The position numbers and the translations under genes are program-made. The notes beneath the pieces were generated by a model that worked only from the letters and a program-made list of their open reading frames with translations, did no database searches and was not told the DNA's origin. From positions 18,946 to 82,945 of the forward strand of contig JACAAZ010000022.1 in assembly GCA_013376995.1 (NCBI GenBank): 64,000 nucleotides of DNA. The letters are read 5' to 3'. The stretch comes from Bacteroidota bacterium (GTDB lineage Bacteria; Bacteroidota; Bacteroidia; Bacteroidales; UBA4417). Shown one piece after another: positions 11,081-27,158 of the stretch (the stretch's first letter is position 1; each line of letters begins with the position of its first letter).

Positions 11081-11124
11081 CTGCTTATGATTTTTATGTT
11101 AAGGTTGGATGGAACTCGCATGTG

Positions 11125-11140
11125 TCCGTCAGCTAACGGA
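11125..11140. repeat. Dispersed palindrome in the susC leader
   Basis: TCCGTCAGCTAACGGA, a member of the palindrome family also found at 34-49, 109-124, 40341-40356 and 40390-40405. It falls in the untranslated leader of the first susC transcript, where it could fold as a hairpin. The rest of 11081-11460 holds only the promoter region and a weak hairpin (11435-11453). Confidence 0.6.
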
Positions 11141-11296
11141 TCATCCTGATTTATGTTAACCGAACATACTCGTTTCATGTACTGTGGTTTTGGTTTGTTT
11201 TCTATTAATATACTCAATTTCTATGAAGTACCAATCATACTGAGGATTTTGTCAACTATTTAAAGTATATGGGAAAGACTGGACATCTATAATATT

Positions 11297-11361
11297 CAAA
11301 GATATAAGATGTTACATATGTTTGCGCATAGATTTGCGCATGATTATCTTCGATTTGCGCA
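11297..11361 (-). promoter_or_regulatory. Operator-promoter of susCD pair 1
   Basis: A -7 box TATCTTTG (minus strand, 11297-11304) is preceded upstream by two direct repeats, written on the plus strand as ATTTGCGCA at 11332-11340 and 11353-11361. They are 21 bp apart start to start, and the nearer lies 27 bp from the -7 box. The 12-bp spacer contains ATCTTC, also conserved at the other two sites. An extra half-site, TTTGCGCA at 11321-11328, overlaps the region where a -33 element would lie. No TTG is seen there, which suggests dependence on an activator. The XylR-like protein encoded at 16321-17487 is the likely binder. Confidence 0.75.
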
Positions 11362-11460
11362 AAATGATAAAAATACATCCACAGGGAGATTGACTTTCAA
11401 ATCCCCATGGAAGTATTTGATGTTAGTAACAAGAACCGGGGCAAAGACCCGGTATCATCT

Positions 11461-12918
11461 TTAATTTTTCAGGATACCGTTACTAAGGTCTATTTGGGTT
11501 TGAGGTATCGGGTAATAGTTGTTAACACCCTCAACATATCCATACTTGCCCAAAACCTCGGCTCCCCTGCCCTGGCGGATAACATCCCATAAGCGTTGTC
11601 CTTCCATTCCCAACTCAACCTGGCGTTCGTGGTAAACAGCCTTAAGCGGATCAGTGAAAGGGGTAGCCGGCATCCCTACTCGATCCCTTACCTGCTGAAG
11701 GTAAGAATTCCAGTCTCCACCTGTATGTGCTGCTGCTTCGGCCGCCCATAGCAAGACTTCTGAGTACCGGATCACTTTCCAGTTATTCGGATCATCGCTC
11801 ATATCGGCCTGTTCACTTGGTGGCAACTGGTATTTCCTGGTCATATATCCATCAACACAGGTTGGGACTGAATTATCAGCTACCGTTTCATCTGCAGTCC
11901 CGGGCCAAAGGACCTCCCCGTTGTAGATAATAGTTGCATCTTTTCTTGGATCACCAGGTTCAAATTCATCTACGTATTCCTGTTTAGGGCAATCAAAGCC
12001 CCAACCGTCATAATTATTCCGGCTACGGGTATAGATAACGAAGACATTCCCTTCATTGTCATCACCCCAATCACCTGTCCCCGATGAAGTGAATTGTATC
12101 TCAAAAACAGATTCCTGCCCGTTTTCATGATCAAGTTTCCAGTTATCTGAATAATTGGTTTCAAGCGAATATTCACCGGATTGAATGATTTCATTTGCCA
12201 ATCCGAGTGCTGCATCCCATTTCTTCTCAAAAATGTAGGCTTTACAAAGGAATGCTTCAGCGGCACCTTTTGTAGCCCTTCCCAATTCACTGGCGGCCTC
12301 TTCACTCTTATTCGGAAGGACCTGGGCTGCTTCAGAAAAATCCTTTTCAATCTGCTGCCAGATTTCGGCATTGGTGGCTTTAGGAATATTATACTGCCCG
12401 GGCTCAAGTATAGTGGTTACCAGCGGCACTTCTCCAAATAGCTTCTCCAATTCGAAATAGAAATATCCCCGGATAAATTTAGCTTCCCCAACGATCCTCT
12501 CACGTATTGCCGGATCAATCTGCTTATCCGTCATTAGTGCAACATTGCCAACCACCCTGTTGCAGCGGTTTATAGCAATATAATATTGTTGATATGGGGT
12601 ATTGAGTTCAGCGATATTGGCATCGTACTGGAATTTCAAAAGGGGTTCGATCCAGGGCTGATCCCCTGCACCTTCACCACCTTTATAGGAATCATGGCCA
12701 AGTATGTCACCCAACCAGAACGGGAAATAATTGTCAGCATCCCATCCCATTACATCATAACATGCTGTTAATGCTGAATTGGCATCTGCTTCGGAAGTGA
12801 AAAAATCGTTCAATGCGACTTTTGGCGATTTCGTGTCCAGGAAATCCTTCGAACAGGATACATTCATGAGTAACAGGACGAATGTTGCCAGGACTATTAT
12901 TGTTGTTTTTCTTTGCAT
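11461..12918 (-). CDS. SusD/RagB family outer-membrane lipoprotein (pair 2)
   Basis: 485 residues. A lipoprotein signal ends in LLMNVSC, followed by SKDFLDTKSP, a very common SusD start. Other SusD blocks are EADANSALTACYDVMGW, IVGEAKFIRGYFYFELEKLFG and a C-terminal HERQVELGMEGQRLWDVIRQG, ending in NYYPIPQTQIDLSNG. It is the glycan-capture partner of the SusC protein encoded 17 bp upstream. It shares family architecture with pair 1 but is not a close copy, so the two pairs may bind different lengths or forms of the same glycan. Confidence 0.92.
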   Translation of the reverse strand: MQRKTTIIVLATFVLLLMNVSCSKDFLDTKSPKVALNDFFTSEADANSALTACYDVMGWDADNYFPFWLGDILGHDSYKGGEGAGDQPWIEPLLKFQYDANIAELNTPYQQYYIAINRCNRVVGNVALMTDKQIDPAIRERIVGEAKFIRGYFYFELEKLFGEVPLVTTILEPGQYNIPKATNAEIWQQIEKDFSEAAQVLPNKSEEAASELGRATKGAAEAFLCKAYIFEKKWDAALGLANEIIQSGEYSLETNYSDNWKLDHENGQESVFEIQFTSSGTGDWGDDNEGNVFVIYTRSRNNYDGWGFDCPKQEYVDEFEPGDPRKDATIIYNGEVLWPGTADETVADNSVPTCVDGYMTRKYQLPPSEQADMSDDPNNWKVIRYSEVLLWAAEAAAHTGGDWNSYLQQVRDRVGMPATPFTDPLKAVYHERQVELGMEGQRLWDVIRQGRGAEVLGKYGYVEGVNNYYPIPQTQIDLSNGILKN

Positions 12919-12935
12919 GGCTGTTCTTTTTTCAG

Positions 12936-15900
12936 TTAAAATGTCAGATTTAATCCTGCGACGAAAGTCCTGGGCTGAGGATAAAAAGCCCTGTCAACTC
13001 CAAGATCGAGGGAACCGAAGTATCCTGTCCCGATTTCAGGGTCAAAACCATCATACTTGGTGAAAGTGAGGAGATTGGTCGCGCCGACATAGAAGCGCAG
13101 CTTAACTATTTTCAAGGTATTACTTAATTCCTGAGGTAAGGTGTACCCTATTTGCAGGTTTTTCACCCGGGTATAGCTCCCTTTTTCGACATAACGGTCA
13201 GAAAAAGCAAGGTTGTTTGCATCAGCAGCATTCAGCCTCGGGAAATGGGCATCGTTTGTAGACCCTTCAACGGTCCATCGGTTGAGCATCCTCACGCTCA
13301 TGTTGTGCGAAGCATCCGGACGGTCAGTATAAACCTTTGTGCCGTTAAACACATCATTGCCATATACTCCCTGGACGAACAATGTAAGGTCAAATCCCCT
13401 GTATTCCAGGTTCAGGTTCATTCCAAGCGTGAAATCCGGTAATGGGTTCCCAATTACTCCATAATATAAATTACCGTTTTGGTCTTTTGCGTAGCGAATG
13501 TCACCTGGCCCGGCATTGGGTTGAAGTGGATTACCATCCGGATCTACCCAGGCATCAACTTCGGCCTGGTTCTGAAACAGTCCGTCGGTTTTATATCCCC
13601 AGAATTGAGCAATCGGGTAACCTACCATAGTCCGGGTGACAAAGCCATTGTCGCGCAAAGGAGCTGACAATATGGACGCCTGGGTTCCCAGGTCTGTAAC
13701 TTCATTGGTATAAGTTGAGAAATTGAACCCGATGTTATAATGCAATTTATTCCATTCATCAGTGAAATTCAATTCCGCCTCGAAACCATTGTTTTTCATC
13801 CCCCCTATATTTACCCAGGGATTTTCCTGTATGCCGACATGCGCGAGAATAGGTGCGTCAAGCAGCATATCGCTGGTCTTTTTGATGTAATATTCCAGCA
13901 CGAGTGTTAGTTTATCCTGCCAAAATCCGGCATCTACACCAATATTGGTAGTTGTAGTGGTCTCCCAGTGCATATCCGGATTTCCCATACCCGGGAAAGA
14001 AATACCATCCTGGATCACCCCTCCAAAGCTGTATCTTTTACCGGATGTGGCCAGGGTTGAATACCCGTAGGGAGGGATCTTGTCATTTCCAATTTGCCCC
14101 CATCCAGCTCTCAGTTTGAGATTGCTGATAAAAGAAACATCCTTCATGAAATTCTCCTGGTTTATCCTCCAACCTGCCGAAAAAGAAGGAAACACGCCGA
14201 AGCGGTGATCGGGTCCAAAAACAGAGGAACCATCTCTCCTGATATTGGCCGTAAGCAGGTATTTATTGTTAAATGTATAATTCAACCTGCCAAAATAGGA
14301 GAAAATGCGCTTGTCGTTCATCAGTCCGGAGGAAGTTGAATTGGGGTTTGTGGCATTGCTGATGTAGATCAGGTGCGAGAACTCCTTTAGCAACTTTGTA
14401 GCCCGGGTCGAAAACCATTCGCTGTAATCCTGGGAGGCTTCCATACCAGCCATTAGCTGAAGATCATGCAACTTGATTTTCTTAGTATAAGTGAAGAAAT
14501 TTGACCAGCTCCATGAACGGTCCTGGCTGCTGCCACGGTAAACAGCACTCACATCATTGCTTTCAGAGCCCGAGATGAAATAGGTGGGAGAATAGTCATA
14601 ATCATTCCCGAAATTGTAGTTCAGCCCCAGGTTCGACTTAAATACCAGGTCCTTAAAGAGTATGATATCCCCGAAAACATTTCCGGTTACCCTGAAATTT
14701 TTGGCCTCATTATGCGTCCGGTCGATATGGGCCACCGGGTTATTCATATCAACATAATTGGAAGGTGCAAAGTTCCCATCCGGCTGGTAAACTTTTGTCA
14801 CCGGGTCGATAGCAACTGCCTGTATCAGTATTGCACTCCATTCATCATCTTCATTGATCCTGTGATTTTTCCCTGATTCGAGAGAAAGGTTCTCCCCGAA
14901 TTTTAGCCAGTTTTTTACGGTGAGGTTTGTGTTGAGCCTGACGGAAGTCCTTTCGAAATCGGATTTCTTTACGATTCCTTCCTGTTTATAGTTATTGGCA
15001 CTTAGGAAATAGGTAAACATATTACTTCCGCCTGATAACGAAAAATTCAGGTTCCTGGTAGCTGCCGATTGGGTAACCTCTTTAACCCAATCGGTCCCTT
15101 TCCCTAAACTCTGGTAATTGGCAAGTTCAGGAAGGGGATCCAGGCCGGCATTTGTGAGCGCTTCATTTTTAAGCATTGCCCACTGGGACGCATCAAGCAA
15201 CTCAGGCTTTTTCCACATGCTGGATGTCCCTAAATAGGTGTCGAATGTGACAACCGGGGTTCCGGCTTTGCCATTCCTGGTAGTGATCAGGATGACGCCA
15301 TTTGCACCCCTTGATCCATAAATGGCGGTTGCTGATGCATCCTTAAGGATTTCCAGCGAAGCAATGTCTGCCGGGTTGATATAGCTGATATCATCAACCG
15401 GGAACCCATCGACAACAAAAAGCGGAGATGCATCATTAATGGTTCCTACACCACGTACCCTCACCTGGAAAGGTGATCCCGGGGAACCAGAATTGGATGT
15501 GATTGTAACCCCGGCAGCCCTTCCCTGCAAAGCCTGGTCAGTAGTAGCTGACGGCATCCGTTCCATGTCATCCGCCTTTACAGACGATACAGCACCGGTA
15601 AGATCGCTTTTGCGTTGTGTTCCATAGCCAACAACCACTACCTCATCGAGGTTACGGCTGGATTCCTGTAGAACAACATCTATGACAGATCTGCCCTTAA
15701 TCTCAATCTCCTGTTTTGTATATCCCAGGAATGAAAATACCAGCACCTTATCACTGCCGGCACTGATTGAAAAGGATCCATCACCCCCTGTGCTGGTGCC
15801 AGTCGTGGTTCCTTTAATCACAACGTTAACTCCCGGAAGGGTAGCACCAGATTCTGTCCTGACAACACCTTTGAGATGAAGCTCCTGAGCAATAGCAAAA

Positions 15901-15986
15901 AAGGATGCCCCAAGAAAGATGATGACAAGCAAAACTGCTTTGGCAGCGGGGTTCAACAATAAAAATAGAGGTAACTTTTTTTCCAT
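12936..15986 (-). CDS. SusC/RagA TonB-dependent outer-membrane transporter (pair 2)
   Basis: 1016 residues. Signal sequence, carboxypeptidase-regulatory-like domain (HLKGVVRTESGATLPGVNVV), plug domain (DEVVVVGYGTQRKSDLTGAV, SPLFVVDGFPVDD, ASATAIYGSRGANGVILITT) and a beta-barrel ending in FVAGLNLTF. It imports glycan fragments in the TonB/ExbBD-driven manner of the family. The upstream intergenic region 15987-16320 holds a leader of about 185 nt, the -7 box and the two-repeat operator, and begins directly after the regulator gene. The stop codon is 17 bp before the susD start, so the two are co-transcribed. Confidence 0.93.
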   Translation of the reverse strand: MEKKLPLFLLLNPAAKAVLLVIIFLGASFFAIAQELHLKGVVRTESGATLPGVNVVIKGTTTGTSTGGDGSFSISAGSDKVLVFSFLGYTKQEIEIKGRSVIDVVLQESSRNLDEVVVVGYGTQRKSDLTGAVSSVKADDMERMPSATTDQALQGRAAGVTITSNSGSPGSPFQVRVRGVGTINDASPLFVVDGFPVDDISYINPADIASLEILKDASATAIYGSRGANGVILITTRNGKAGTPVVTFDTYLGTSSMWKKPELLDASQWAMLKNEALTNAGLDPLPELANYQSLGKGTDWVKEVTQSAATRNLNFSLSGGSNMFTYFLSANNYKQEGIVKKSDFERTSVRLNTNLTVKNWLKFGENLSLESGKNHRINEDDEWSAILIQAVAIDPVTKVYQPDGNFAPSNYVDMNNPVAHIDRTHNEAKNFRVTGNVFGDIILFKDLVFKSNLGLNYNFGNDYDYSPTYFISGSESNDVSAVYRGSSQDRSWSWSNFFTYTKKIKLHDLQLMAGMEASQDYSEWFSTRATKLLKEFSHLIYISNATNPNSTSSGLMNDKRIFSYFGRLNYTFNNKYLLTANIRRDGSSVFGPDHRFGVFPSFSAGWRINQENFMKDVSFISNLKLRAGWGQIGNDKIPPYGYSTLATSGKRYSFGGVIQDGISFPGMGNPDMHWETTTTTNIGVDAGFWQDKLTLVLEYYIKKTSDMLLDAPILAHVGIQENPWVNIGGMKNNGFEAELNFTDEWNKLHYNIGFNFSTYTNEVTDLGTQASILSAPLRDNGFVTRTMVGYPIAQFWGYKTDGLFQNQAEVDAWVDPDGNPLQPNAGPGDIRYAKDQNGNLYYGVIGNPLPDFTLGMNLNLEYRGFDLTLFVQGVYGNDVFNGTKVYTDRPDASHNMSVRMLNRWTVEGSTNDAHFPRLNAADANNLAFSDRYVEKGSYTRVKNLQIGYTLPQELSNTLKIVKLRFYVGATNLLTFTKYDGFDPEIGTGYFGSLDLGVDRAFYPQPRTFVAGLNLTF

Positions 15987-16177
15987 GAATTATGATTTTT
16001 AGTTTGTCTGAAAAGTCAAATCGTCAATAATTCAAAACTCCCGGATAAAATCTTCGCTATCCAGGGAGTGCCGGGAAGGCTCAAGGAAAGCAATTGAATA
16101 GATAAAACCAGAGCAAAACAATTGTTTTAAAAACAATGCCCTGATTTGAATATGAGCAAATTACCCTTGCCTTTACT

Positions 16178-16242
16178 CAAAGATATGCCAGAAAGCCAGA
16201 TTCCATCTACTGATTTGCGTATAATTATCCTCAATTTGCGAA
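16178..16242 (-). promoter_or_regulatory. Operator-promoter of susCD pair 2
   Basis: A -7 box TATCTTTG (minus strand, 16178-16185) with direct repeats ATTTGCGTA (16213-16221) and ATTTGCGAA (16234-16242, plus-strand view). Repeat spacing (21 bp) and the 27-bp distance to the box are identical to the sites at 11297 and 23493. The 12-bp spacer TAATTATCCTCA is close to the TGATTATCTTCG of pair 1. No -33 TTG is present. It lies in the gap between the regulator gene and susC. Confidence 0.78.
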
Positions 16243-16320
16243 AATGTTGTACAATTGTGGATTAGCAAGGCTTCCAAATTATCGAGAGCCTAAGGTTTAT
16301 TGGAATAACTGAGCCAGGCA

Positions 16321-17487
16321 TTATTTTTTGATGGCAAGATGTTTTATCCTGTATTCATTGGGGGTACAACCCTTAACCTGCTTAAACTGCCTGGAAATAT
16401 TCTTGCTATTGCCAAAACCTGCCTCCAGTGCAATTTCGAAGATAGTTTTATCTGTTTCCAGCAGCCGCTGTGCGAATTTCTGTATCTGTAAATTGTAGAT
16501 GTATTTATAAACACCGATTCCTGTTGTTTCCTGGAAACGCTTCTCAAGGGCTCTTCTCGAAAACGGAACCTCCCTCAGCACATCGGCTACATTGATCCTG
16601 TTATCAATATTTTGATGGATGAATTTAAGAGCCTTAGCCATATATTTGTCAGAAGCGGAAGCAATATCGGTAGACTGCCTTGTTATAACCTGGGTAGGCC
16701 CAACAATGATATCCTGCGGGATTACCACCTGCTTATTGATCATCAGGTCCATCAGCCGCGCAGCTTCATAGCCACCCCTTACGGTATCCAAACCAATGCT
16801 TGACAATGGGGGATCTGATAGGTTACAGGTCATCTCATCATTATCTACCCCCAATACGGCGATCTCTTCCGGAATCTGGATCTTTGCATGCTTACATGCT
16901 TCTGTGATGTGCTGCCCGCGCTCATCGTCGCAAGCCATGATGGCTACAGGTTTTGGAAGCGATTGAAGCCACTGGCTGAGTGCCGAAGGCTTATAATACC
17001 AGAGTTCGCGCGATGGGGCCTGTTCCTGGTCAAAATGATGAACCGTATACCCCTGTGCAGTAAGATGTCTCTCATAACCTTCGGCACGTTCCCTCGACCA
17101 AACTATATTCTTGAACCCATAAAATGCAAAATTCCGGAAGCCTTTCTTCAGAAAATACTCGGCACCGAGTTCGCCGGTTTCAAAATAGGCCCCGGTAATA
17201 TTGGGAATATCAGAAAAACGTTCCTTGAAATCTTCAGCAATTACACATATCCCCGCATCAACCAGCTTTTTAGTATCCAGGTCATTGTACAATTGTGCAA
17301 AGATCCCATCGGCACCCCATTCTTTTGCGAAATTTACTATGCCTTCCATCCCCAGGGTTTCCCTGTAGAATAGCGGCATCTTACAGAACACCCAAGGCCC
17401 ATGCTCTTTGGAATAGCGGGTTATTCCCTTGAGGAGTGCCTGCCCGTACTCTTCCGAAATATCAATCAGCAGAATGATCTTATGCAT
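16321..17487 (-). CDS. XylR-like transcriptional regulator (LacI-type sensor + AraC DNA-binding domain)
   Basis: 388 residues. The N-terminal 275 form a periplasmic-binding-protein-like sugar sensor (ILLIDISEEYGQALLKGITRYS start, then GADGIFAQ, MACDDERGQHITEACK, VLGVDNDEMTC and GPTQVITRQSTD). The C-terminal 105 are an AraC-type double helix-turn-helix (NVADVLREVPFSRRALEKRF, then IFEIALEAGFGNSKNISRQF). This is the arrangement of E. coli XylR, which activates genes by binding direct repeats. It follows the alpha/beta hydrolase gene by 1 bp and precedes the susC promoter. The three ATTTGCGYA repeat sites in the locus are its predicted targets, and its ligand is probably GlcN, GlcNAc or a derivative. 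Both assignments are inferences. No such site is seen at its own promoter. Confidence 0.85.
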   Translation of the reverse strand: MHKIILLIDISEEYGQALLKGITRYSKEHGPWVFCKMPLFYRETLGMEGIVNFAKEWGADGIFAQLYNDLDTKKLVDAGICVIAEDFKERFSDIPNITGAYFETGELGAEYFLKKGFRNFAFYGFKNIVWSRERAEGYERHLTAQGYTVHHFDQEQAPSRELWYYKPSALSQWLQSLPKPVAIMACDDERGQHITEACKHAKIQIPEEIAVLGVDNDEMTCNLSDPPLSSIGLDTVRGGYEAARLMDLMINKQVVIPQDIIVGPTQVITRQSTDIASASDKYMAKALKFIHQNIDNRINVADVLREVPFSRRALEKRFQETTGIGVYKYIYNLQIQKFAQRLLETDKTIFEIALEAGFGNSKNISRQFKQVKGCTPNEYRIKHLAIKK

Positions 17488-17488
17488 A

Positions 17489-18517
17489 TCAATGGTTAAG
17501 GAAATCCAGGATTGTTGAAATATATACAGTGGGCTGTTCTACTGAAATCGAATGACCGGCCCCGGGAACGATAACCAGCTTGTGATCCTTGAAAAGCTCA
17601 AGGTATTCAGTCGAAAAGCCCCATTTCAGGTTATCACATTGCCCTTTCATCTCAAGCAGGGGAACTTTGCAATTTCTTAGCAACGGCCGGGGATCCCTGG
17701 TAGCAGACAGACTGGCCAGCGTCATTAGCTGAACATAAAATCCACCTCCGCCCTCAGCCTTAGGTGCGAGGGTTGTATCACAAACCACTGATTTATTAAG
17801 CTCCTGGTTCAGGAATGTTTGGTAACTATCGGCTTCTTCATCGGGAATAAGTTTCTTGCCAAATGCAACCGAATACCAGGATGTAAACCGCATCCGCAGG
17901 TTGCCGGCTTTCCTGTTTCCTTCTGCATTTGATGCCTGGGGAGTTTTCAAATGAAGACTGTCAGGGGCATTGAGCCCTGCCAATTCCACCCTGATCGGAG
18001 GGATGGGCCCCGGCCCGGTGAGGATAAGCTTTTCAACCCTGTCCTGGTGCCTGGCAGTATATAAAACAGCAAGCATGGCGCCCCAGGATTGCCCAAGAAG
18101 AATCACCTTTCCTGTTCCTATTTTATCAATGATTGCTGCCAGGTCTCTTACATGCCGTTCAGCTGTATAATCCTCAATATTATGCAGTTTCCCGGATGAG
18201 CCACTTCCTGCCTGGTCGTAGAGGTAAATATCAAATCCTGCATCTGCGAGGGGCGCTAATGAATTTACCCTCCGTTCAGAAATAAACCCTCCGGGGCCGC
18301 CTTGCAGGAAAATGACTGGAGTAGGGCGATGCAGGCCTTTGGCGGGAATATGAATAAAGCCGATCTTCGAGCCGGTTGTCAATGACCAGAATTGAGTCCC
18401 CGGAACCTGATGAAAAGCCGGGACATTATAGTGCCTTGGGTTGAAAATGATTCCTGACAGAATACCAAGCATCAGCAATACTCCCAATCCAACTAATCGC
18501 CAAAAATTCCTCTTCAT
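17489..18517 (-). CDS. Alpha/beta hydrolase, proline iminopeptidase-like (S33)
   Basis: 342 residues with an N-terminal hydrophobic segment (LVGLGVLLMLGILSGIIF) that should anchor or export it. The fold is shown by the HGGPGG-type oxyanion block (FLQGGPGGFIS), the nucleophile elbow GQSWGAML, a late Asp region and the final GAGHSISVEQP containing the catalytic His. Proline iminopeptidases and related S33 hydrolases share these blocks. It forms an operon with the regulator (1-bp gap), behind a -7 box at 18589-18596. In a glycan locus it might remove an acyl group or peptide from the substrate, but nothing in the sequence fixes this. Confidence 0.75.
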   Translation of the reverse strand: MKRNFWRLVGLGVLLMLGILSGIIFNPRHYNVPAFHQVPGTQFWSLTTGSKIGFIHIPAKGLHRPTPVIFLQGGPGGFISERRVNSLAPLADAGFDIYLYDQAGSGSSGKLHNIEDYTAERHVRDLAAIIDKIGTGKVILLGQSWGAMLAVLYTARHQDRVEKLILTGPGPIPPIRVELAGLNAPDSLHLKTPQASNAEGNRKAGNLRMRFTSWYSVAFGKKLIPDEEADSYQTFLNQELNKSVVCDTTLAPKAEGGGGFYVQLMTLASLSATRDPRPLLRNCKVPLLEMKGQCDNLKWGFSTEYLELFKDHKLVIVPGAGHSISVEQPTVYISTILDFLNH

Positions 18518-18588
18518 TATGCTAGCTTATAAGACCGGGGTACAACCCGTTTAAGATCAGTCTTTCTGGATGTGAAATCCATACTCCC

Positions 18589-18596
18589 CAAATTTA
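18589..18596 (-). promoter_or_regulatory. Predicted -7 box TAAATTTG of the hydrolase-regulator operon
   Basis: Minus-strand TAAATTTG matches TAnnTTTG and lies 71 bp upstream of the hydrolase ATG. The two-repeat operator is not present upstream of it, so the regulator operon appears to be expressed independently of its predicted targets. Confidence 0.45.
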
Positions 18597-18654
18597 AAGC
18601 AAAATGGGTGGAATAACAGGTTCCCCTAAGAAAACTGAAAATTTACAGGAAAAC

Positions 18655-19884
18655 CTAGAATGTCTTGTTTTTTACCAATGGTCGGGCCCATATCCCGATA
18701 CTGAAAATATATCCGAGTGTGATAAAAAGGAAGAACATTGCACTTTTCAGCCCTATCAACTCACCAAGTCCGCCAATAAGCAAGGGAACAACTGCACCGC
18801 CCAGGATTGCAGTACAGAGTATTCCTGAAAAGGTACCATGATGAGATTCAACAGAGTTGAGTGCCAGTGAAAATACCACCGACCACATGACGGAAGCAAA
18901 AAAACCAGTTACCGGGAATGCGATTATAGCTACCGAAGCGCTTCCGGTCAAGGCTATGACAAGGGATAGGATTGCCCCCGTAGTGAAGATCAGGAGGACT
19001 TTCCGGCTATCCATGAGTTTTAAAAGCAGAAGTCCCAATAAGCAGCCAACTGTCAATAGTCCCCAGAAATAGGAGATAACATCAGCTCCTGTAGTTTCTG
19101 GATTCACCCCATGATATTGCTGAAGGAATTTGGATGCCCAGTTGGCAATTCCCTGTTCAGTCCCAACATAAGCAAATATCCCGATGAAGAAGAGAATCAC
19201 GTACCTGTTCTTAAGCAGCTCTTTGAAAGCCTTGCCGGTATCAATTTTTTCATCTTCCTTTAACTCTACCTTTGGGAACTTAACAAGCCATATAACCATT
19301 ATAATGACCAGCACAGTGAGGGCAAAAACCCAGTAAAGTGATGCCCATTCCAGGTGAACCGGGACAATAGGATCCAGGATGCGGGTAACGAATGAACTCT
19401 GGCCGGAATGTAAATTCTTGACCAGGTAACTGTATAACTGCGGGCTTAGAAAAGATGCTGATCCAAAAACAAGCTGTGCAAGTACGGAATAAAACGCAAA
19501 ATGTTCTTCTCCGCCGGATTCCCTCAACAATGGATTGATTGCTACCTGCAGCATCGCCATACCTATGCCGATTAGGAAAAGAGACGGCAGGGCCACTGAA
19601 AACCTTGGAAACAGGGCAAACATCAACGCGCCAATAAAAGCCAGGCAAAATGCCATGATCATGACTGTCTTTTCCGAATATTTTTCTATGAGCACACCGG
19701 CGGGAATAGACATGAAACCATATGCCACAAAAAACGAGAATGGAAGAAATCCCGCCAGCCCGATCCCAAGATTGAAGCTCTTAATCATATCCGGAATGAG
19801 CGGGCCAAGAATGTTTGTTAGAAATGATATTACAAAAAATATCAGTAGTATCAGGATGACCATTACAGCACTCTTCTGTTTCAT
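18655..19884 (-). CDS. MFS sugar transporter (FucP/NagP-like)
   Basis: 409 residues with about twelve predicted membrane segments in two halves of six separated by a loop near KFPKVELKEDEKIDTGK. The overall pattern is that of the FucP/NagP sugar:proton symporters that Bacteroidota use to carry monosaccharides over the inner membrane. The start at 19884 is chosen because ATGA overlaps the stop codon of the GH2 gene, a sign of translational coupling; an upstream ATG in the same frame at 19917 would give an overlap of 37 bp. As the third gene of the ROK-GH2-MFS operon it probably imports glucosamine or GlcNAc released in the periplasm. Confidence 0.85.
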   Translation of the reverse strand: MKQKSAVMVILILLIFFVISFLTNILGPLIPDMIKSFNLGIGLAGFLPFSFFVAYGFMSIPAGVLIEKYSEKTVMIMAFCLAFIGALMFALFPRFSVALPSLFLIGIGMAMLQVAINPLLRESGGEEHFAFYSVLAQLVFGSASFLSPQLYSYLVKNLHSGQSSFVTRILDPIVPVHLEWASLYWVFALTVLVIIMVIWLVKFPKVELKEDEKIDTGKAFKELLKNRYVILFFIGIFAYVGTEQGIANWASKFLQQYHGVNPETTGADVISYFWGLLTVGCLLGLLLLKLMDSRKVLLIFTTGAILSLVIALTGSASVAIIAFPVTGFFASVMWSVVFSLALNSVESHHGTFSGILCTAILGGAVVPLLIGGLGELIGLKSAMFFLFITLGYIFSIGIWARPLVKNKTF

Positions 19885-22517
19885 AAGATCTCTATTTTTT
19901 GATTTGAGATATTCCAACCTGAAATTGTCAACCTGGGTTCACTTCCTTTTAACGAACCTTGTGGAACCAGGCACTTGATACTTCGCTTTTCACCAGGCAT
20001 CAGGCTGAAAAAGTTGTCGTCCCAGAACAAGGGATATATCAGTTCCCCTTTATCATTTTTCAGTTCAAGGTGGCAGAAGAAAGCGACATTACTGCCGGGA
20101 TTTTCAAGCTGAACATCCAAAACCTGCTCCTTACCTTTCAGGGATTTTTTGCATGAAGTTCCGAGTTTCGCCGCTGGCATTGAGGATAAGGCAGAATAAT
20201 CAGCATAATCTTTCATGGGAGTATAGGCCCAAAAGGTTTTGTCCCAGGCATATTCATCTTTTTTATCGGATAGCCAGTAGAAATTATCTGAGATTCTTTT
20301 GCCCGTTTTGTCAGTGATTACAAGCGAAAGGAACGATGCACCTTTTATGAAACCAGGTTTATAAATCAAGCTGGAAGTATTGTACCGCAAGGCAACATCT
20401 ACATCTTTTCTGATAATTTCATGTGACTGTGCATTCAGCCAGGTCATGCTTGCTTTAACAACACCATCTCCCTCTGCATGAAGCGGAGACTCATTGACAA
20501 GGTAAATCTCCCCTGATCCATAATCATACACCAGCTGAATAGGTTCATTTGCCTTTTTTGCAGCGTAATATGCAGAGGTAGGAAGGAGGTTATAATCATA
20601 TAACTGCCAGAATAGTGAAGGCCATGCCGAATTCAACATCCACTGGATAATGCCTGTTGTTTTGGGTATCCTGCTTCTGAAAGCCTCAAACATAGCCTTC
20701 AGGGCTTCGTAACCCTGCATATCGGATTTCACAAGGTAATCGTCAAGACTAGCAGGCTTACCATACCTAGCAGTCAGTGCATCATTAAATACATTCATAG
20801 TGTTGAATGCCTGTTTCGAATGAGTGCAATGATAATTCCAGGTATCATTTAACGGCCATAATTTATCTGCAGGGATCATTTTCCGGACAGATTCCAGGAC
20901 CGGAACCTGCGGGCCCGGGCCAGTCTCGGTATTGAACCCGAAAGCACCGCCATTGATCGTATCTGTATACCAGTAATTGGGGGCCACATATTCATAGGGG
21001 CCATTCATTTTAACACCGGTGGGGCCACTAACCTCACTCTTCCGTGTGCTGGCAGCAGAAAGGTACGGCCTGTTGTCAAGGCTGCTTATCATACCGGCAT
21101 ACTGTTTCTCCAGTTCCGGCCTCGGGCATTTGTCGGATCCTACAAACCACACAAATATACTCGGGTGATTTCTAAGCCAGAGAAGCTGGTCACGGAAAGA
21201 ATTTATTGCAAGGCCCATATCTTCCTTCGACTGTATCCCGCCAAATTCATCGCAGGCTTTTCCGAGGTATTCATCCCATTCCCAATGACAGCTCCATCCA
21301 ACCATAGCAAGAATCCCGTACTTGTCGCAGAGATCATATATTTCGGAAGAATTCCCCCAAAACCCCTCAAAACGGATTGTGTTCAGGTTCATGTGCTTCA
21401 CATATTGCACCTGGATTTCCAGGCTTGCTGAACTGTCGCGGAGAAAAATATCGTCAGCCCAGCCAGCACCTTTAATAAGAACTTCCTTGCCATTCAGTTT
21501 AAAGCCCTTATAACCGTGTTCATTCACATACGATTGTATATCCCTGATCCCGAAGGTCACCGACCTTTGGTCCGAAAGCTGCTCATTGGTAAGCAGAGAC
21601 AATTCAAGATGGTATAGTTCCGGGGTCCCGAGATTGTTGCACCACCAGATTCGTGGGTTCAGAATCTTCAGGGCCGGGATATTGGAAGGATCCAGGGAAA
21701 TAATTCGGGTTTCCAGAGGCTTGAGGTTGACAGGAAAGCTGAATTCAATTTTGCCAATTTTACCTTTGAGCAGGCAATTTCGCTTTTTAGGGGAGAGATT
21801 ATGAATTTCTGTTGATATGGTTAAATCGGCTTCTTTAAGGGTTTGGATATTTAGACTTGGCTGGACATGGTTGTTTTCAAGTATTACAGGTCCTGTTGTT
21901 TCCAGGTAAACTCCACGCCAGATTCCCATATTTTCATCTGTCGGCCTTGGATTCCAATCAACAAAACCAATATTGAAATCCCCGGGTTTAGCTTTACTCA
22001 CCTCTACGGCCAGGACATTTATACCTTTTCGAACCAGTGAAGTAACATTCAGCTCATATCTTCTGAAAGGGCCAAAAATGCTATCGCTTGACGCAATCTG
22101 CTTCCCATTCAGCCAGATATTTGCGTAATAATTCAAGCCATCAAACCGAAGAATGACCTGTTCTTCCTGGTATTTTTCATTTATACGGAATTCTTTTCGG
22201 TACCACCAGGAATCATCGAAAGGGGTTTTGTCAATATCCTGGTAGTTTTTACCCATGAAAATATCATGATACAGCCCGTTTCGGGTTAGATTGCCCATAA
22301 CGGTACCCGGAACCTCCGCCGAATACCAACCTTTTGTGCTTATTCCGGGTGAGGAGATAGAAGCTCCCTCTCCCTTGATCTTGCCTGATTGCTGTAAACT
22401 CCATCCCTTTTTCAACTCAATGTTGCCTGGTTTCAGTTGTTTGTTTTGTGCCACTGAGAAAAGTGCCAGGAACAGGATCAGGGATAACAAGGTAGAAAAT
22501 CGGAAGATGATGGTCAT
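19881..22517 (-). CDS. GH2 exo-beta-D-glucosaminidase-like glycosidase
   Basis: 878 residues with a signal peptide and the GH2 order: jelly-roll (about 40-210), immunoglobulin-like domain, TIM barrel (about 330-650) and C-terminal beta domains. In family 2 the acid/base is usually in an Asn-Glu pair; here it is Ser461-Asp462 (VGSDKCP), the pair that defines the CsxA-type exo-beta-D-glucosaminidase subfamily. The nucleophile is Glu531 in NTETGPG, 69 residues later, close to the spacing known in CsxA. The VDWNPRP...NMGIWRGV segment is also typical of that subfamily. It should release GlcN from the non-reducing end of chitosan-type oligosaccharides in the periplasm. It is co-transcribed with the ROK kinase and MFS transporter. 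Confidence 0.82.
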   Translation of the reverse strand: MTIIFRFSTLLSLILFLALFSVAQNKQLKPGNIELKKGWSLQQSGKIKGEGASISSPGISTKGWYSAEVPGTVMGNLTRNGLYHDIFMGKNYQDIDKTPFDDSWWYRKEFRINEKYQEEQVILRFDGLNYYANIWLNGKQIASSDSIFGPFRRYELNVTSLVRKGINVLAVEVSKAKPGDFNIGFVDWNPRPTDENMGIWRGVYLETTGPVILENNHVQPSLNIQTLKEADLTISTEIHNLSPKKRNCLLKGKIGKIEFSFPVNLKPLETRIISLDPSNIPALKILNPRIWWCNNLGTPELYHLELSLLTNEQLSDQRSVTFGIRDIQSYVNEHGYKGFKLNGKEVLIKGAGWADDIFLRDSSASLEIQVQYVKHMNLNTIRFEGFWGNSSEIYDLCDKYGILAMVGWSCHWEWDEYLGKACDEFGGIQSKEDMGLAINSFRDQLLWLRNHPSIFVWFVGSDKCPRPELEKQYAGMISSLDNRPYLSAASTRKSEVSGPTGVKMNGPYEYVAPNYWYTDTINGGAFGFNTETGPGPQVPVLESVRKMIPADKLWPLNDTWNYHCTHSKQAFNTMNVFNDALTARYGKPASLDDYLVKSDMQGYEALKAMFEAFRSRIPKTTGIIQWMLNSAWPSLFWQLYDYNLLPTSAYYAAKKANEPIQLVYDYGSGEIYLVNESPLHAEGDGVVKASMTWLNAQSHEIIRKDVDVALRYNTSSLIYKPGFIKGASFLSLVITDKTGKRISDNFYWLSDKKDEYAWDKTFWAYTPMKDYADYSALSSMPAAKLGTSCKKSLKGKEQVLDVQLENPGSNVAFFCHLELKNDKGELIYPLFWDDNFFSLMPGEKRSIKCLVPQGSLKGSEPRLTISGWNISNQKIEIL

Positions 22518-22610
22518 GTTAACACGGTTGACAGAATGTGACTACAAAAGAAACCAGCTTGTTAATAATTCCCCCTCATAAAGATAGGAATGATAAGGAT
22601 TAACTATTAC

Positions 22611-23438
22611 TTATTTCACTAAGGCAGCGGCTCCAAGAATTGCAACATTTTCAAGTTTCGACTGCAGGATATTTAGCCGTTTAACAGATTCCGGGTAAGG
22701 AAACCCTGCGACGATTTCACGCATTGATTTTTCAAAATATGGATAGGCCTTCGAAATTGATCCTCCCAACATAATAAGCTGAGGATCAAAGGCAAACATT
22801 ACAGTTTGTATTAAAATACCAAGGTGGTGACCAAAGTCTTCCCAGATCAGCTTTGCCCGTTGTTCTCCGCGTATTGCTTCCGAATTAGCCTCAGCGGCTG
22901 TAATTCCAAAGTGCTTTTCAAAAAACCTGCTGCTTGTATAATCCTCAAAAATAGAATCCAGGTAAGGAATAGAACCTACTTCTCCTGCACCACAGTTATT
23001 TCCCTCATAGAGTGTGTCATTGATTATGATGCCCGCTCCAAGACCTGTCCCCATAGCAAGGGCAACAATTGAAGAGCAGGATTTTGCTTCGCCATAAAGA
23101 TGTTCGCCCAAAACAAGGCAGTTAACATCATTATTCACAAATACCGGGATGTGGAATTCGTCTTCGAGTATCTTCTTTAAAGCAACCTCTTTCCAGGAAG
23201 GAATATTAGCCACCTCGTATACAATACCATTCTTGCTGTCAACCAGCGAAGGAACTCCGATCCCCAGGCCTTTCACCTTTTCATTCACCAGTGGGGCAAT
23301 TGAATTTATGAGTTGCCGGATGGTAGATGAAAATGAATCCTTCTCTGTAAGTGATGATTTATTCAGGGAGATAATTTCTCCATCATTCACTAATCCTGAC
23401 CTGATATTTGTACCTCCTAAATCAACGCCAATGATCAT
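22611..23438 (-). CDS. ROK family sugar kinase, probably acting on an amino sugar
   Basis: 275 residues, no DNA-binding domain, so an enzyme and not a NagC/Mlc-type repressor. The phosphate-binding DLGGTNIR is at residues 6-13, the catalytic Asp104 is in VNNDVNCLVLGE, and a second glycine-rich block GTGLGAGI follows. The usual zinc site (His of GExGH plus the CxCGxxGCxE motif) is missing: the region reads GAGEVGSIPY and no Cys cluster follows. Some ROK kinases lack this site. First gene of the operon with the GH2 enzyme and the MFS transporter; expected to phosphorylate incoming GlcN or GlcNAc in the cytoplasm. The specificity is inferred from context. Confidence 0.82.
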   Translation of the reverse strand: MIIGVDLGGTNIRSGLVNDGEIISLNKSSLTEKDSFSSTIRQLINSIAPLVNEKVKGLGIGVPSLVDSKNGIVYEVANIPSWKEVALKKILEDEFHIPVFVNNDVNCLVLGEHLYGEAKSCSSIVALAMGTGLGAGIIINDTLYEGNNCGAGEVGSIPYLDSIFEDYTSSRFFEKHFGITAAEANSEAIRGEQRAKLIWEDFGHHLGILIQTVMFAFDPQLIMLGGSISKAYPYFEKSMREIVAGFPYPESVKRLNILQSKLENVAILGAAALVK

Positions 23439-23492
23439 ATTTCTTTTTATTTGGAATAGAATGAAACTGGATTATACATTTCTTACTACATA

Positions 23493-23557
23493 CAAATCTA
23501 GGTGATCTGTGAGAAAAAGACGCAGGAAAATGCGTATCAAAATCTTCAATTTGCGCA
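23493..23557 (-). promoter_or_regulatory. Operator-promoter of the ROK-GH2-MFS operon
   Basis: A -7 box TAGATTTG (minus strand, 23493-23500) lies 54 bp upstream of the kinase ATG. Direct repeats AAATGCGTA (23528-23536) and ATTTGCGCA (23549-23557, plus-strand view) are again 21 bp apart and 27 bp from the box. The spacer shares ATCTTC(A) with the other two sites. The farther repeat is perfect while the one nearer the promoter has two changes, so this site may be weaker. No -33 TTG is present. Confidence 0.72.
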
Positions 23558-23592
23558 AAACAAGATTCTGACTTATCCACAAGCAAATGACT

Positions 23593-25254
23593 TTATTGCT
23601 TCCATTTAGGTGTTCGGTAATGAATTCCCTGATCATCCATATAATTGAAATGAGGCTTCATCCGCGCCTGAAACGACTGCCAGGCCTGGGTGGAAGACCA
23701 ACTTGCTTCGGATAATGCCTGCAATGCAGGGAAAACAATCTGTTCGAACTTAGCCTCCGAAGGAATAATCTCTGTCCAAACACAACCTTGCAGGCCAATG
23801 GTCTTACCTGAAACAGCGGCATTGTATTGATCTGATGGTTTGAAATTATACAGGTCCTCCAATGACTGGTCATCATTATTACTGGAGAAATAAAAAGGAT
23901 ATGCCGCACTTATAATAAGAGAATTCCCGTTAGCCGCACACCTGGCGGGAGAATCGGTAACCCAGTCGCGCCAATACATCAGAAGCAATTGGTTGTCAAT
24001 TGTGCCTTCAATTACGTCATCCCAGGCAATCACTGTTTTCCCTTTTGATTGAAGATGTGACTGCAATTGTTTCACGAAATAGTTTTGTATTTCCTTGGCA
24101 GAATGCATATTATGTTCCAGCATAAACGCGTGGCATTCCGGAGAAGCTGACCAGGTTGTAGTTTCAACTTCATCACAACCAATATGCACCAGGTTTGAAG
24201 GGAAGAGCGCTATGATTTCATCCCATATATTAAAAGCAAAATCCATAGTTTGCTGGTTGCATGGACAGATTGGATAAGAAAAATCTGCTCCCCAACCGGT
24301 TGAATCTGTACAGGATAACCAGGGATATGCCCTTATGGCAGATGACATATGGCCTGGCATGTCGATTTCAGGTATAATCTCAATGAAATGAGCAGAAGCA
24401 TACGTAATAATTTCTGCTAAGTCTTGTTTCGAATAATATCCCCCATATTGCCTTTTCCCATTGTGTTCCCTGGTAAACCTCTCATCCAGCGTATAGGACG
24501 GGTCTGTCTTTGCCAATTCAAGACAGGTAGAGTCATAGGAATTAAAATCTCTCCAGGCTCCTGTTTCTGTAAGTAAAGGATACTGATCAATTTGTATTCG
24601 CCAGCCCTGATCGTCGGTCAGGTGAAGGTGAAGTTTATTAAGCTTGTAATATGCCATCCAATCAATGACCTTTAAGAGGTACTCTTTTGTAAACATATGC
24701 CTGGCCAGGTCTACATGTAATCCCCTCCATACAAAAGCTGGTTGATCATCAATTTTCAAACAGCCAAGTTCAATTTCGTTCACCTTCTTACCGGCACAAG
24801 CATTCCAAACCATTTGCCTCAGTGATTGAGCAGCATAAAATGCAGCTCTTGGGCTTCCAGCCCGGATATTGATATCCTGCTTCCCAATCTCAAGCTGATA
24901 CTGTTCTTCCAAAAGATTTCCATCCAGGGTAAAAATGATATTTGCACCAGTTCCCGGGTTATCTTTCCTTTCAATTTTGACCCTCATTATATCAGAAAAG
25001 GTATTTTCTATGAGGTCGATAGCCCGGGTAAAAATCGTATTGTTAACAATAACAGTGGTACTGTCGATTTTAAGATATCCTTCAGAAGAGATTACACTTT
25101 TAGGCAAAGGAATGATACCATGAAAATGGTAGGGAATCGCCGGTTGATTTTCCGAATTCTTTTTACAGGAATAACAGAAGCTGGCAACAACAGCTATACC
25201 AATCAAAAGGCAAAACAATCCAACCGTATGCCTCAAAATTCCAGTTATTGACAT
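23593..25254 (-). CDS. GH20 beta-N-acetylhexosaminidase (lipoprotein)
   Basis: 553 residues: hydrophobic N-terminus ending in FCYSCKK, which looks like a loose lipoprotein box; a GH20b domain (about 45-160); and the GH20 barrel with the catalytic pair Asp361-Glu362 in HIGCDEVE and the substrate-binding LHLHLTDDQGWRI block. It should trim GlcNAc or GalNAc from the non-reducing end while anchored to a membrane. It is a tandem paralogue of the next gene. A -7 box TAAGTTTG lies 37 bp upstream of the start codon, without the shared operator. It precedes the ROK operon promoter on the same strand. Confidence 0.88.
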   Translation of the reverse strand: MSITGILRHTVGLFCLLIGIAVVASFCYSCKKNSENQPAIPYHFHGIIPLPKSVISSEGYLKIDSTTVIVNNTIFTRAIDLIENTFSDIMRVKIERKDNPGTGANIIFTLDGNLLEEQYQLEIGKQDINIRAGSPRAAFYAAQSLRQMVWNACAGKKVNEIELGCLKIDDQPAFVWRGLHVDLARHMFTKEYLLKVIDWMAYYKLNKLHLHLTDDQGWRIQIDQYPLLTETGAWRDFNSYDSTCLELAKTDPSYTLDERFTREHNGKRQYGGYYSKQDLAEIITYASAHFIEIIPEIDMPGHMSSAIRAYPWLSCTDSTGWGADFSYPICPCNQQTMDFAFNIWDEIIALFPSNLVHIGCDEVETTTWSASPECHAFMLEHNMHSAKEIQNYFVKQLQSHLQSKGKTVIAWDDVIEGTIDNQLLLMYWRDWVTDSPARCAANGNSLIISAAYPFYFSSNNDDQSLEDLYNFKPSDQYNAAVSGKTIGLQGCVWTEIIPSEAKFEQIVFPALQALSEASWSSTQAWQSFQARMKPHFNYMDDQGIHYRTPKWKQ

Positions 25255-25291: not shown

Positions 25292-25299
25292 CAAACTTA
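25292..25299 (-). promoter_or_regulatory. Predicted -7 box TAAGTTTG of the second GH20 gene
   Basis: Minus-strand match to TAnnTTTG, 37 bp upstream of the start codon at 25254. No ATTTGCGYA repeat is present at the expected distance. Confidence 0.45.
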
Positions 25300-25496
25300 A
25301 TTGAGTATTAGGAATAAATCACAGGAATATACATGTCAAATCCTTCGACTTGTTAAAACGTCTTATCAATTCTAAATTGAATGAACTTTAGCGAGTAATA
25401 AGGTGTTCGGGGAAATTATTCTAATCGTTCCTAAGGTCAGGGAATAAGCTAAAATTGGTTTAAGAATGAATACCAGAATTTCTAAAAGCCGCTGTC

Positions 25497-27098
25497 TTAT
25501 TGAGAAGGCTTTCGATAATTGATCTTACCTGCATCCATATCTTTCATCCTGACATCCAAACGTTGCCGGAATCCCAACCAATCGCGCCCCTTCGACCAGC
25601 AAACTTCCGACAGCGCCTGTAACCTGGGGAATACAAGGTATTCAAAACGTTCTTCTGATGGGATCTCTTCAGTCCACACACAACTTTGCAGCCCTATTAC
25701 TTTATTCATTACCTCTTTGGGAAAATGAGTTTTAGGGTCATATTCATAAAGTTCCCTGAATGTTGAATCCGAATGGTGACCGCTGATGTAAAACGGAGAC
25801 CAGGGTGTCAGGATGATACTGTTTCCATTCCCGGCACATCGTCCGGGCGAATCCTTTAACCAATCACGCCAGTACATCATAATGAGATTACTGTCAACCT
25901 TACCATCAATCACATCATCCCAGGCAATCACTTTCTTTCCTTTCGACTCCAAGTGTTGCTGAAGTTGCCTGACGAAATAATTCTGAACTTCCTTTATATC
26001 AGTTAAAGCATGTTCCTTCATAAATTGCCTGCAAATTCCGGATGATTCCCAGGTATCTTTTTCTACTTCATCACTGCCAATATGAACATAAGGTGAAGGA
26101 AAAAGCGAGGCAATTTCATCCCAAACTGCAAAAGCGAATTGCATGGTTTCCTGTTTGCATGGGCATATTGGATACGAGAATTCCTTCCCCCATCCTGTTG
26201 AGCCTGTACATGAAAGTTCCGGGTAAGCCCTGATGGCAGCCGACATATGCCCGGGCATATCGACTTCCGGGATAACTTCAACATAGTGTGCTGTTGCATA
26301 GTTAATGATTTCCTCCAGTTCCTTCTTTGAATAGAATCCCCCATAGGTCTCATCAGCCCTGACAAATCGCCTGTCAATTGCGAAATCGGGGTTTTTTTTT
26401 GCCTGAAGCAAACAAGCTGAATCCAGGTCGTTGAACGTCCGCCAGGAACCTGTTTCATTCAACAGGGGAAATTTTTCAGATTGCACCCTCCAACCCTGGT
26501 CATCAGTGAGATGTAAATGCAGCTTGTTCAGCTTGTAAGAGGAAATCCAGTCGATGAGTCTTAGAATATATTCTTTTGTGAAAAAATGCCTTGAAACATC
26601 AAGATGAAATCCTCTCCATTCGTATGCCGGGGAATCACGAATTTCGCAGCAAGGAATTACATAATTTGATTTATGCTGCTTTGCATCCAAAACATACAAA
26701 GGTTGAATCAACTGCTTTATTGATTGAAAAGCATAGAAAGCACCGGCTGCATCACTATATGATATAATGATTTTTGACGGAGTTATCCGAAGTATATAAC
26801 CATCCTTGGGGATAGAAACATCCTTTGCAAAACATATGGAATTCCTGCTGCCTGCTGAATGATACTTGATTGGAAAGTGCGTCAATCCAGAAACATACTT
26901 TACCAGGCTATCTGAAACAGGCCGGAGCAGCTTGTTGGGAGTTGCAAATTTTAAATTGTGCGAAAGGTGGAAATAACCTTCGGAAACCTGGATGGAAACC
27001 GGTTTGGGGATTACAGGATACCGTTGGTCAACAGTCTGGCCCTGGCATATACCTGCTGATAGAAATGCAATAAAGAGTGTGGAAAGAAATCGTACCAT
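25497..27098 (-). CDS. GH20 beta-N-acetylhexosaminidase (secreted)
   Basis: 533 residues with a normal signal peptide (MVRFLSTLFIAFLSAGICQG), so periplasmic or secreted and not lipid-anchored. GH20b domain (about 30-150) and GH20 barrel with Asp343-Glu344 in HIGSDEVE. Large blocks match the neighbour at 23593, such as KLNKLHLHLTDDQGWR, so the two arose by tandem duplication and then diverged in localisation. The reading frame is open to a TTG at 27134, but the ATG at 27098 gives the proper signal peptide and lies 60 bp after a -7 box. Expected to act on terminal GlcNAc or GalNAc. Confidence 0.88.
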   Translation of the reverse strand: MVRFLSTLFIAFLSAGICQGQTVDQRYPVIPKPVSIQVSEGYFHLSHNLKFATPNKLLRPVSDSLVKYVSGLTHFPIKYHSAGSRNSICFAKDVSIPKDGYILRITPSKIIISYSDAAGAFYAFQSIKQLIQPLYVLDAKQHKSNYVIPCCEIRDSPAYEWRGFHLDVSRHFFTKEYILRLIDWISSYKLNKLHLHLTDDQGWRVQSEKFPLLNETGSWRTFNDLDSACLLQAKKNPDFAIDRRFVRADETYGGFYSKKELEEIINYATAHYVEVIPEVDMPGHMSAAIRAYPELSCTGSTGWGKEFSYPICPCKQETMQFAFAVWDEIASLFPSPYVHIGSDEVEKDTWESSGICRQFMKEHALTDIKEVQNYFVRQLQQHLESKGKKVIAWDDVIDGKVDSNLIMMYWRDWLKDSPGRCAGNGNSIILTPWSPFYISGHHSDSTFRELYEYDPKTHFPKEVMNKVIGLQSCVWTEEIPSEERFEYLVFPRLQALSEVCWSKGRDWLGFRQRLDVRMKDMDAGKINYRKPSQ

Positions 27099-27158
27099 GG
27101 CATTGGGGAGGGCCAGGAAAAAAGAGAGAAACAACCTTTCTTTTCAGGCAACTCAAAC

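Follow-up and report, generated by a model that had tools for sequence, protein, structure and literature searches.

To our knowledge, the way in which AraC-type activators engage the unusual -33/-7 promoters of Bacteroidota is poorly mapped, although many glycan loci are under such control. In Bacteroides thetaiotaomicron, the predicted sites of hybrid two-component systems (HTCS) are direct repeats that average 21 bp at glycan operons (PMC3878776), and PMC11253607 deals with the binding of HTCS at susCD promoters. For XylRA of Vibrio, the homologues retrieved are described as distributed in Gammaproteobacteria, and an electrophoretic mobility shift assay is reported (PMC12125979). Here we describe a stretch of 64,000 nucleotides, hereafter the window, from a Bacteroidota bacterium of the Bacteroidales (UBA4417; assembly GCA_013376995.1). 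The window is contig C15 (JACAAZ010000022.1), 18946-82945, in a genome of 5,048,050 bases and 43 contigs, and all coordinates below are counted within it unless a locus is named. It encodes a XylR-like protein, which we call REG (16321..17487, minus strand). By alignment, E. coli XylR (4fe4, 4fe7) has the same order of two domains as REG; it serves the xylose operon, whereas REG belongs with amino-sugar SusCD loci of Bacteroidota. Our reading, to which we give a probability of roughly 0.82, is that REG, a cytoplasmic protein, is an activator of XylR type that probably responds to an amino sugar; it would bind a conserved operator as a dimer, replace the -33 contact and co-activate the putative operons of the locus.

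Three intergenic promoters on the minus strand each hold an operator of about 39 bp, read directly as roughly TTTGCGCAAATTGARGATTATAATACGCAAATTCCTAC. S1 (11326..11364, -) lies upstream of susC1, with CGCAAAT at 11359-11353 and 11338-11332. S2 (16207..16245, -) lies upstream of susC2 and recurs at orthologous positions in relatives, and S3 (23522..23560, -) precedes the ROK-GH2-MFS-hydrolase-regulator run. In S1, S2 and S3 alike, the CGCAAAT-type half-sites are 21 bp apart and the end of the nearer one is exactly 27 bp from a TAnnTTTG box, taken as the -7 element: TATCTTTG at 11297..11304 for S1, TATCTTTG at 16178..16185 for S2 and TAGATTTG at 23493..23500 for S3, all on the minus strand. A first-pass annotation of the window had proposed these three promoters, their 21-bp repeats and the 27-bp distance, and direct reading confirms all of them. 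It had also reported a conserved ATCYTC in the spacer, which appears as GARGAT on the coding strand, and repeats of the type ATTTGCGYA; these hold generally across S1, S2 and S3, but the nearer half-site of S3 is CGCATTT rather than CGCAAAT. On the minus strand S1 reads TTTTGCGCAAATCGAAGATAATCATGCGCAAATC..., S2 ATTTTCGCAAATTGAGGATAATTATACGCAAATC... and S3 TTTTGCGCAAATTGAAGATTTTGATACGCATTTTC... The half-site core CGCAAAT is repeated and the sequence after it differs, with GARGAT following the first copy and TCCTAC the second, the latter 22-27 bp ahead of the box. The annotation was likewise right that the -33 TTG is missing: the 27-bp intervals of S1, S2 and S3 contain none, and among the 33 operator sites that we collected only two have one within the -33 range, so that it is missing in 31.

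A palindromic LacI-type operator (TTTGCGCAAA in S1 and S3) was considered and rejected. What is conserved is the direct repeat, since the second half-site, TACGCAAAT, is no palindrome, and the domain search gave no LacI-type helix-turn-helix (HTH) in REG. Two further observations concern these promoters. S1, and neither S2 nor S3, carries an additional CGCAAAC (11320-11326, -), whose first base is 12 bp beyond that of the nearer half-site. In front of both susC genes, about 190-215 bases separate the -7 box from the start codon (11081-11296 and 15987-16177, -), a leader length sufficient for post-transcriptional control.

REG has 388 aa, with Peripla_BP_3 at 109-273 and HTH_18 at 306-380, and it aligns over its full length with the E. 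coli XylR structures (E 1.7e-51; 2-381 of 387 positions). An N-terminal sensor resembling LacI and periplasmic binding proteins (PBP) and a C-terminal AraC-type double HTH are joined in one chain, as in the XylR type. These PBP-like and HTH domains are all that it holds, without the periplasmic sensor, kinase and receiver of a hybrid two-component system. Like that of XylR, its sensor has no signal peptide or membrane part, and the effector would therefore be an imported small sugar. Since the frequent companions of REG are ROK, MFS, GH20, GH2 and NagB-like genes, glucosamine (GlcN), N-acetylglucosamine (GlcNAc) or a phosphate of one of them is a candidate; these gene neighbours suggest that the effector is such an amino sugar and not xylose. 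REG is also the last gene of the run that starts at S3, 1 bp after the hydrolase gene, a position that suggests positive autoregulation through S3.

The mechanism that we propose would begin with GH20 and GH2 enzymes releasing an amino sugar (GlcNAc, GlcN or a derivative), which the cell would import. With the sugar present, a REG dimer would occupy the operator, one monomer to each CGCAAAT half-site, on the same helix face and two turns apart. AraC-type monomers use two HTHs each; the upstream monomer would read GARGAT as well, and the downstream one TCCTAC. The usual -33 position falls near TCCTAC, 22-27 bp before the box, and the downstream monomer would take that position, in fixed register to the TAnnTTTG box, and recruit RNA polymerase. 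Without REG, a promoter lacking the -33 element would stay weak, and REG, encoded last behind S3, would raise its own level. In class II AraC-type activation, the half-site nearer the promoter adjoins or overlaps the upstream core element and keeps a fixed register to it. That is the geometry seen here, with 27 bp to the -7 box, in sites held out from the models as well, and TCCTAC near -33. The position is fixed to one base pair, so the predicted contact can be tested directly by changes of spacing.

The same promoters could be read the other way round, with REG bound in the absence of the sugar, repressing, and leaving when the sugar arrives in the fashion of LacI. The LacI/PBP-like sensor domain and the nearness of the operator to the core promoter would suit a repressor. 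However, 31 of the 33 sites have no TTG in the -33 range, which fits a promoter that depends on an activator, and a register exact to the base pair fits contact with polymerase better than blocking; moreover, E. coli XylR and Vibrio XylRA are described as activators (PMC12125979). We consider repression improbable. A repressor of the NagC/NanR type is a separate matter: the ROK domain of the ROK protein in the window spans 3-275 of 275 aa, and the domain search gave no HTH match in it, so that it lacks the N-terminal HTH by which such repressors are recognised.

Could the shared geometry be accidental? We scanned the whole genome for CGCAAAT-N14-CGCAAAT-N27-TANNTTTG, allowing up to 3 mismatches, with the reversed pattern as a control. 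Four matches were returned, namely S1-S3 (0, 0 and 2 mismatches) and one on contig C43 that has 3 mismatches, lacks the spacer motif and looks like chance; the control gave 0 matches on either strand. An operator matrix trained without the window sites scored S1, S2 and S3 at 46.0, 40.0 and 39.2 bits, against 0.0 bits for the next-best place in the window and 5.4 bits for the best of ten Markov-1 random windows. By the genome scan, the geometry does not recur at random, which was one of the refuting conditions that the annotation had set. Recent duplication of one promoter segment would be a different route to three like sites, and all three do lie inside 12.3 kb. Against this, their flanks beyond operator and box are dissimilar, and the site recurs with identical register in diverged genomes. 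Chance or recent duplication has, in our judgement, a negligible probability.

We next considered the distribution of sites and regulator in three samples, comprising 16 genomes of the genus, 295 of the order and 395 of the phylum. REG occurs at 82-85% identity in 10 of the 16 genus genomes, and the operator-plus-box pattern was found in exactly those ten (24 sites; 0 for the control). The six genomes with neither include four that are at least 90% complete. The conservation that the annotation had asked to be checked is there: sites in the genus precede orthologues of susC, ROK and GH20b. Additional sites stand before other susC genes: those of G002 lie 35-40 kb from REG, and G007 has them on a separate contig. 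In G002, the site adjoining REG precedes two genes of GH92, an alpha-mannosidase family, and a site of G007 precedes the first part of a like gene, which the end of the contig truncates. As a separate observation, G007 carries an inositol-catabolism-like run between the MFS gene and REG (L026:7765-17124), with KduI/IolB, thiamine-pyrophosphate-enzyme and Gfo/Idh domains, its remaining genes being named from sequence only.

The GH92 genes bear on the ligand. Sites and the role of REG might be as we propose and the effector and regulon be for another sugar, such as N-glycan mannose, a reading that touches only the ligand and can stand beside the rest of our proposal; the GH92 genes of G002 and G007 would speak for it, and those of G002 mean that mannose may be the effector sugar. 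The window itself, however, has three GH20 genes and a CsxA-type glucosaminidase, and in two public-genome loci (L084, L071) a fusion of glucosamine-6-phosphate isomerase and PIG-L stands behind a site. We regard a different sugar as unlikely, with a real share of the probability all the same.

Many of the known sites had been chosen partly by means of the box, and for this reason we searched the order and phylum with a box-blind model, which describes the 39-bp operator by sequence alone and includes neither gap nor box. (The operator alignment, A2, has 32 rows from the 33 sites, one duplicate, L067 = L061, being omitted.) A carrier is here a genome in which alignment A1 matches REG at E <= 1e-100, a definition that leaves weaker homologues aside; G000, G074 and G120 are carriers present in both samples. 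In the order, 7 of 295 genomes are carriers, and the operator model matched at E <= 5e-6 in four genomes, every one a carrier (G000, G003, G011, G074); a fifth carrier, G219, has a match at E 4.6e-4 that adjoins REG. In the phylum, where 6 of 395 genomes have REG, the operator was matched at E <= 1e-3 in three, again all carriers (G000, G074, G497). At E <= 0.05 the order sample gives 61 of 295 genomes, mostly with partial matches, which we did not count as sites. The held-out sites of G074, G219 and G497, found without using the box, have boxes at exactly 27 bp: TAATTTTG, TTACTTTG (one mismatch) and TAATTTTA, respectively. The regulators of G074 and G219 are 48% and 55% identical to REG, and the REG match of G497 has E 8.5e-201. 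The G074 site lies before ROK and susC-type genes, 16 kb from REG. Twenty returned order loci were examined, 5 from carriers and 15 from non-carriers. In five of the 15 (L110, L115, L117, L118, L123) the ungapped matrix chose another place, and the box was rechecked at the places of the model; none of the 15 non-carrier loci has a perfect box at registers 24-30. Among all loci then in the set, 46 distinct sequences score at least 12 bits, counted as distinct 39-mers since some loci are identical DNA fetched twice (e.g. L022 and L060), and 40 of them have the box exactly at 27. Of the other six, one has it at 28, two have a one-mismatch box at 26 or 27, and three, all from non-carriers, have none.

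Two genomes of these samples have arrangements of their own. In G497 (L133:5500-11488), the operator and its box at 27 are followed by a gene for an extracytoplasmic function (ECF)-type sigma factor and then by susC-/susD-like genes, a layout that suggests a two-step cascade. In G605 (L135:10555-17377), REG-ROK is divergent from susCD-like genes, and the space between them holds two operators that overlap and point in opposite directions, both with a perfect TANNTTTR at 27; by its gene layout, this is a putative minimal form of the system.

The same samples speak to whether REG is a passenger and another AraC-type protein of the genome binds the sites. The genome has 18 HTH_18 matches, and the 17 other than REG's probably include hybrid two-component systems, some lying in frames of 955-1399 aa; the predicted HTCS sites of Bacteroides are likewise direct repeats averaging 21 bp (PMC3878776). 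Strong sites, however, occur solely alongside REG in the genus, order and phylum samples, and the G605 sites sit between ROK-REG and susCD. The annotation had called the XylR-like hybrid the only AraC-type protein in the window, and indeed just one of the 18 matches, that of REG, falls there, while the loci of other genomes have not all been scanned for DNA-binding domains. We consider binding by another AraC-type protein improbable.

A further set of 36 REG loci comes from public genomes, and 20 of them have at least one site. Sites are present in 9 of the 10 loci whose REG is 82-85% identical (L060-L069) and in 11 of the 26 others (L070, L071, L074, L076, L079, L080, L082, L084, L085, L092 and L095, the last of which includes just the first 21 REG residues). 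REG identity in site-bearing loci goes down to about 65%, and the labels include Lentimicrobium and Flavobacterium. With a 71-bp matrix, the best site of each site-bearing locus among L072-L094 scores 39 to 69 bits, with 49.7 bits for L092, which was outside the training set, and a second L082 site, its box one base off, scores 6.9 bits; in the loci of this range that have no site, the best place anywhere reaches -7.8 bits. L084 has the isomerase/PIG-L fusion behind one site and susCD-GH20a behind another, flanking GH2 and REG, and L082 and L085, judged by size, share this layout. The fusion, with a PIG-L deacetylase part, stands directly behind the operator at L084:5188-7119 and L071:2994-4958. 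Near its site, L070 has only REG and a susCD pair in common with the window, its susC being 31% identical to susC2; at a distance of 5-10 kb from the site it also encodes a Reg_prop/GerE protein and a sigma factor.

Several observations weigh against our reading of REG as the activator at these sites. Sixteen of the 36 public REG loci have no site: ten from Spirosoma (REG about 60-67% identical), L072 and L073 (71%) and four short contigs (L068, L083, L086, L091). In the Spirosoma loci (L075, L077, L078, L081, L087-L090, L093, L094) the GH20-ROK-MFS-REG run is preceded by a conserved intergenic block whose arms, CTTTAGTAC / GTACTATAAAG, are inverted, and this block is perhaps the operator of another regulator. 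Of the carriers, G302 of the order sample (REG 43%) yielded no site, G554 of the phylum sample none in 20 kb around the regulator, and G497 none within 19 kb around REG, its site being on another contig. G120 (REG 47%) has only a 2.2-bit place adjoining REG, with TTAATTTG at 27, and the operators of G605, from the phylum sample, are weak, at only 9.0 and 7.1 bits. Three non-carriers (G230, G095, G301) match the model at E 2.4e-4 to 3.7e-4, ahead of carrier G219. G095, which has no REG at E <= 1e-100, shows both half-sites 19 bp apart with no box in register (L126:4061, -), and the non-carrier G121 (L113) has a single half-site and a one-mismatch box at 27. Most of the 40 of 46 sequences with the box at 27 derive from sites selected partly by the box. 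Finally, most of the sites share one cluster with REG and may be inherited with it, so that their co-occurrence alone is weaker evidence than it appears; sites distant from REG are few (16 kb in G074, 35-40 kb in G002, other contigs in G007, G001 and G497). Taken with these points, the computed tests support the earlier proposal of control by the XylR-like protein, with binding by REG, activation and the ligand as predictions.

The annotation had spoken of a three-promoter regulon; three strong promoters are borne out, but the number becomes four if a decayed site upstream of GH20b is counted. This degenerate operator, S4 (25321..25359, -), was picked out by the 33-site matrix together with a box at 27, and its -7 box, TAAGTTTG, lies at 25292..25299 (-), exactly 27 bp past the nearer half-site. 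It scores 2.4 bits with the 33-site matrix (rank 4 in the window) and -0.7 bits with the matrix made without window sites (rank 5). Apart from S1-S3, it alone among the top 300 places of the window has a perfect box at 27, TANNTTTR having a background frequency of 6.7e-4 per position. The upstream end of S4 is 105 bp from the GH20b start (25254), and the GH20b gene of the relatives L060, L063 and L065 carries a strong site. We read S4 as a probable fourth operator in decay, with half-sites that have drifted and the 27-bp register retained.

The genes of the locus are all on the minus strand. Behind S1 follow susC1, a SusC/RagA TonB-linked porin (8084..11080; TIGR04056), susD1 (6532..8064; SusD_RagB domain) and, downstream of susD1, the beta-hexosaminidase GH20a (3491..6043; domain match). 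Behind S2 follow susC2 (12936..15986; TIGR04056) and susD2 (11461..12918; SusD_RagB domain). The first gene after S3 encodes the ROK sugar kinase (22611..23438; ROK domain), and with it run a GH2 exo-beta-D-glucosaminidase of CsxA type (19881..22517; 2vzs, E 5.6e-152), an MFS sugar permease resembling GluP/FucP/NagP, with scores below NCBIfam cut-offs (18655..19917), an alpha/beta hydrolase (17489..18517) and, after the 1-bp gap, REG, the proposed activator. GH20b (23593..25254), after S4, and GH20c (25497..27134) are two further beta-hexosaminidases assigned by domain match; none of the top operator matches in the window is upstream of GH20c.

More broadly, these data may point to an undescribed XylR-type amino-sugar regulon in several Bacteroidota lineages, in which the proximal monomer would take the -33 role and the register would be locked to the base pair. 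Operator, 27 bp and TAnnTTTG would then predict promoters even where the regulators are only about half identical, including the divergent REG-ROK/susCD switch, where the operators overlap, and the ECF-type sigma gene that stands before susCD in one genome. We put the odds of this wider statement at about even. What is gained is a sequence rule that places the proposed activator relative to the -7 box with single-base-pair precision in diverged species, a named candidate regulator and promoter set for the scavenging of amino sugars (of chitin or N-glycan type) in uncultured Bacteroidales, and an operator matrix by which the regulon can be recognised elsewhere.

How does this compare with what has been described? 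In the open-access literature, the titles and abstract beginnings among the matches listed gave no XylR-type regulator of Bacteroidota amino-sugar loci, subscription journals and RegPrecise lying outside this scope. AraC-type repeats of 21 bp are already known from Bacteroides; for the regulator type, the regulon and the locked 27-bp register, the open-access literature searched yielded no description. The annotation had called such control notable; this has to be tempered, as 21-bp repeats (PMC3878776, PMC3870299) and an AraC-family glycan activator, CgrA (PMC5698469), precede it. The HTCS of Bacteroides share the AraC-type DNA-binding domain with REG and have periplasmic sensor, kinase and receiver domains, which REG lacks; section 8 of the paper gives no fixed distance to the -7 box (PMC3878776). 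RhaR of Bacteroides is of the AraC family and has a predicted direct repeat with 21-bp periodicity, like the REG sites; unlike REG, it serves rhamnose, and the paper nowhere mentions XylR (PMC3870299). CgrA of Zobellia (ZGAL_3159) belongs to the AraC family and positively regulates a dispersed glycan regulon of a Bacteroidota bacterium, with support from a deletion mutant; its substrate is carrageenan, unlike that of the REG locus, and no operator was met in the part of the text consulted (PMC5698469). The chitin locus of Flavobacterium johnsoniae resembles the window in serving an amino-sugar polymer with two SusC/D-like pairs, and it is under two-component CusS/CusR control and not of XylR type (PMC5127042). 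XylRA of Vibrio differs from REG in the AT-rich repeats of its sites and in its effector, xylose; it resembles REG in being of XylR type, is an activator of a polysaccharide locus, and has as its motif a pair of direct repeats that recurs at several promoters (PMC12125979).

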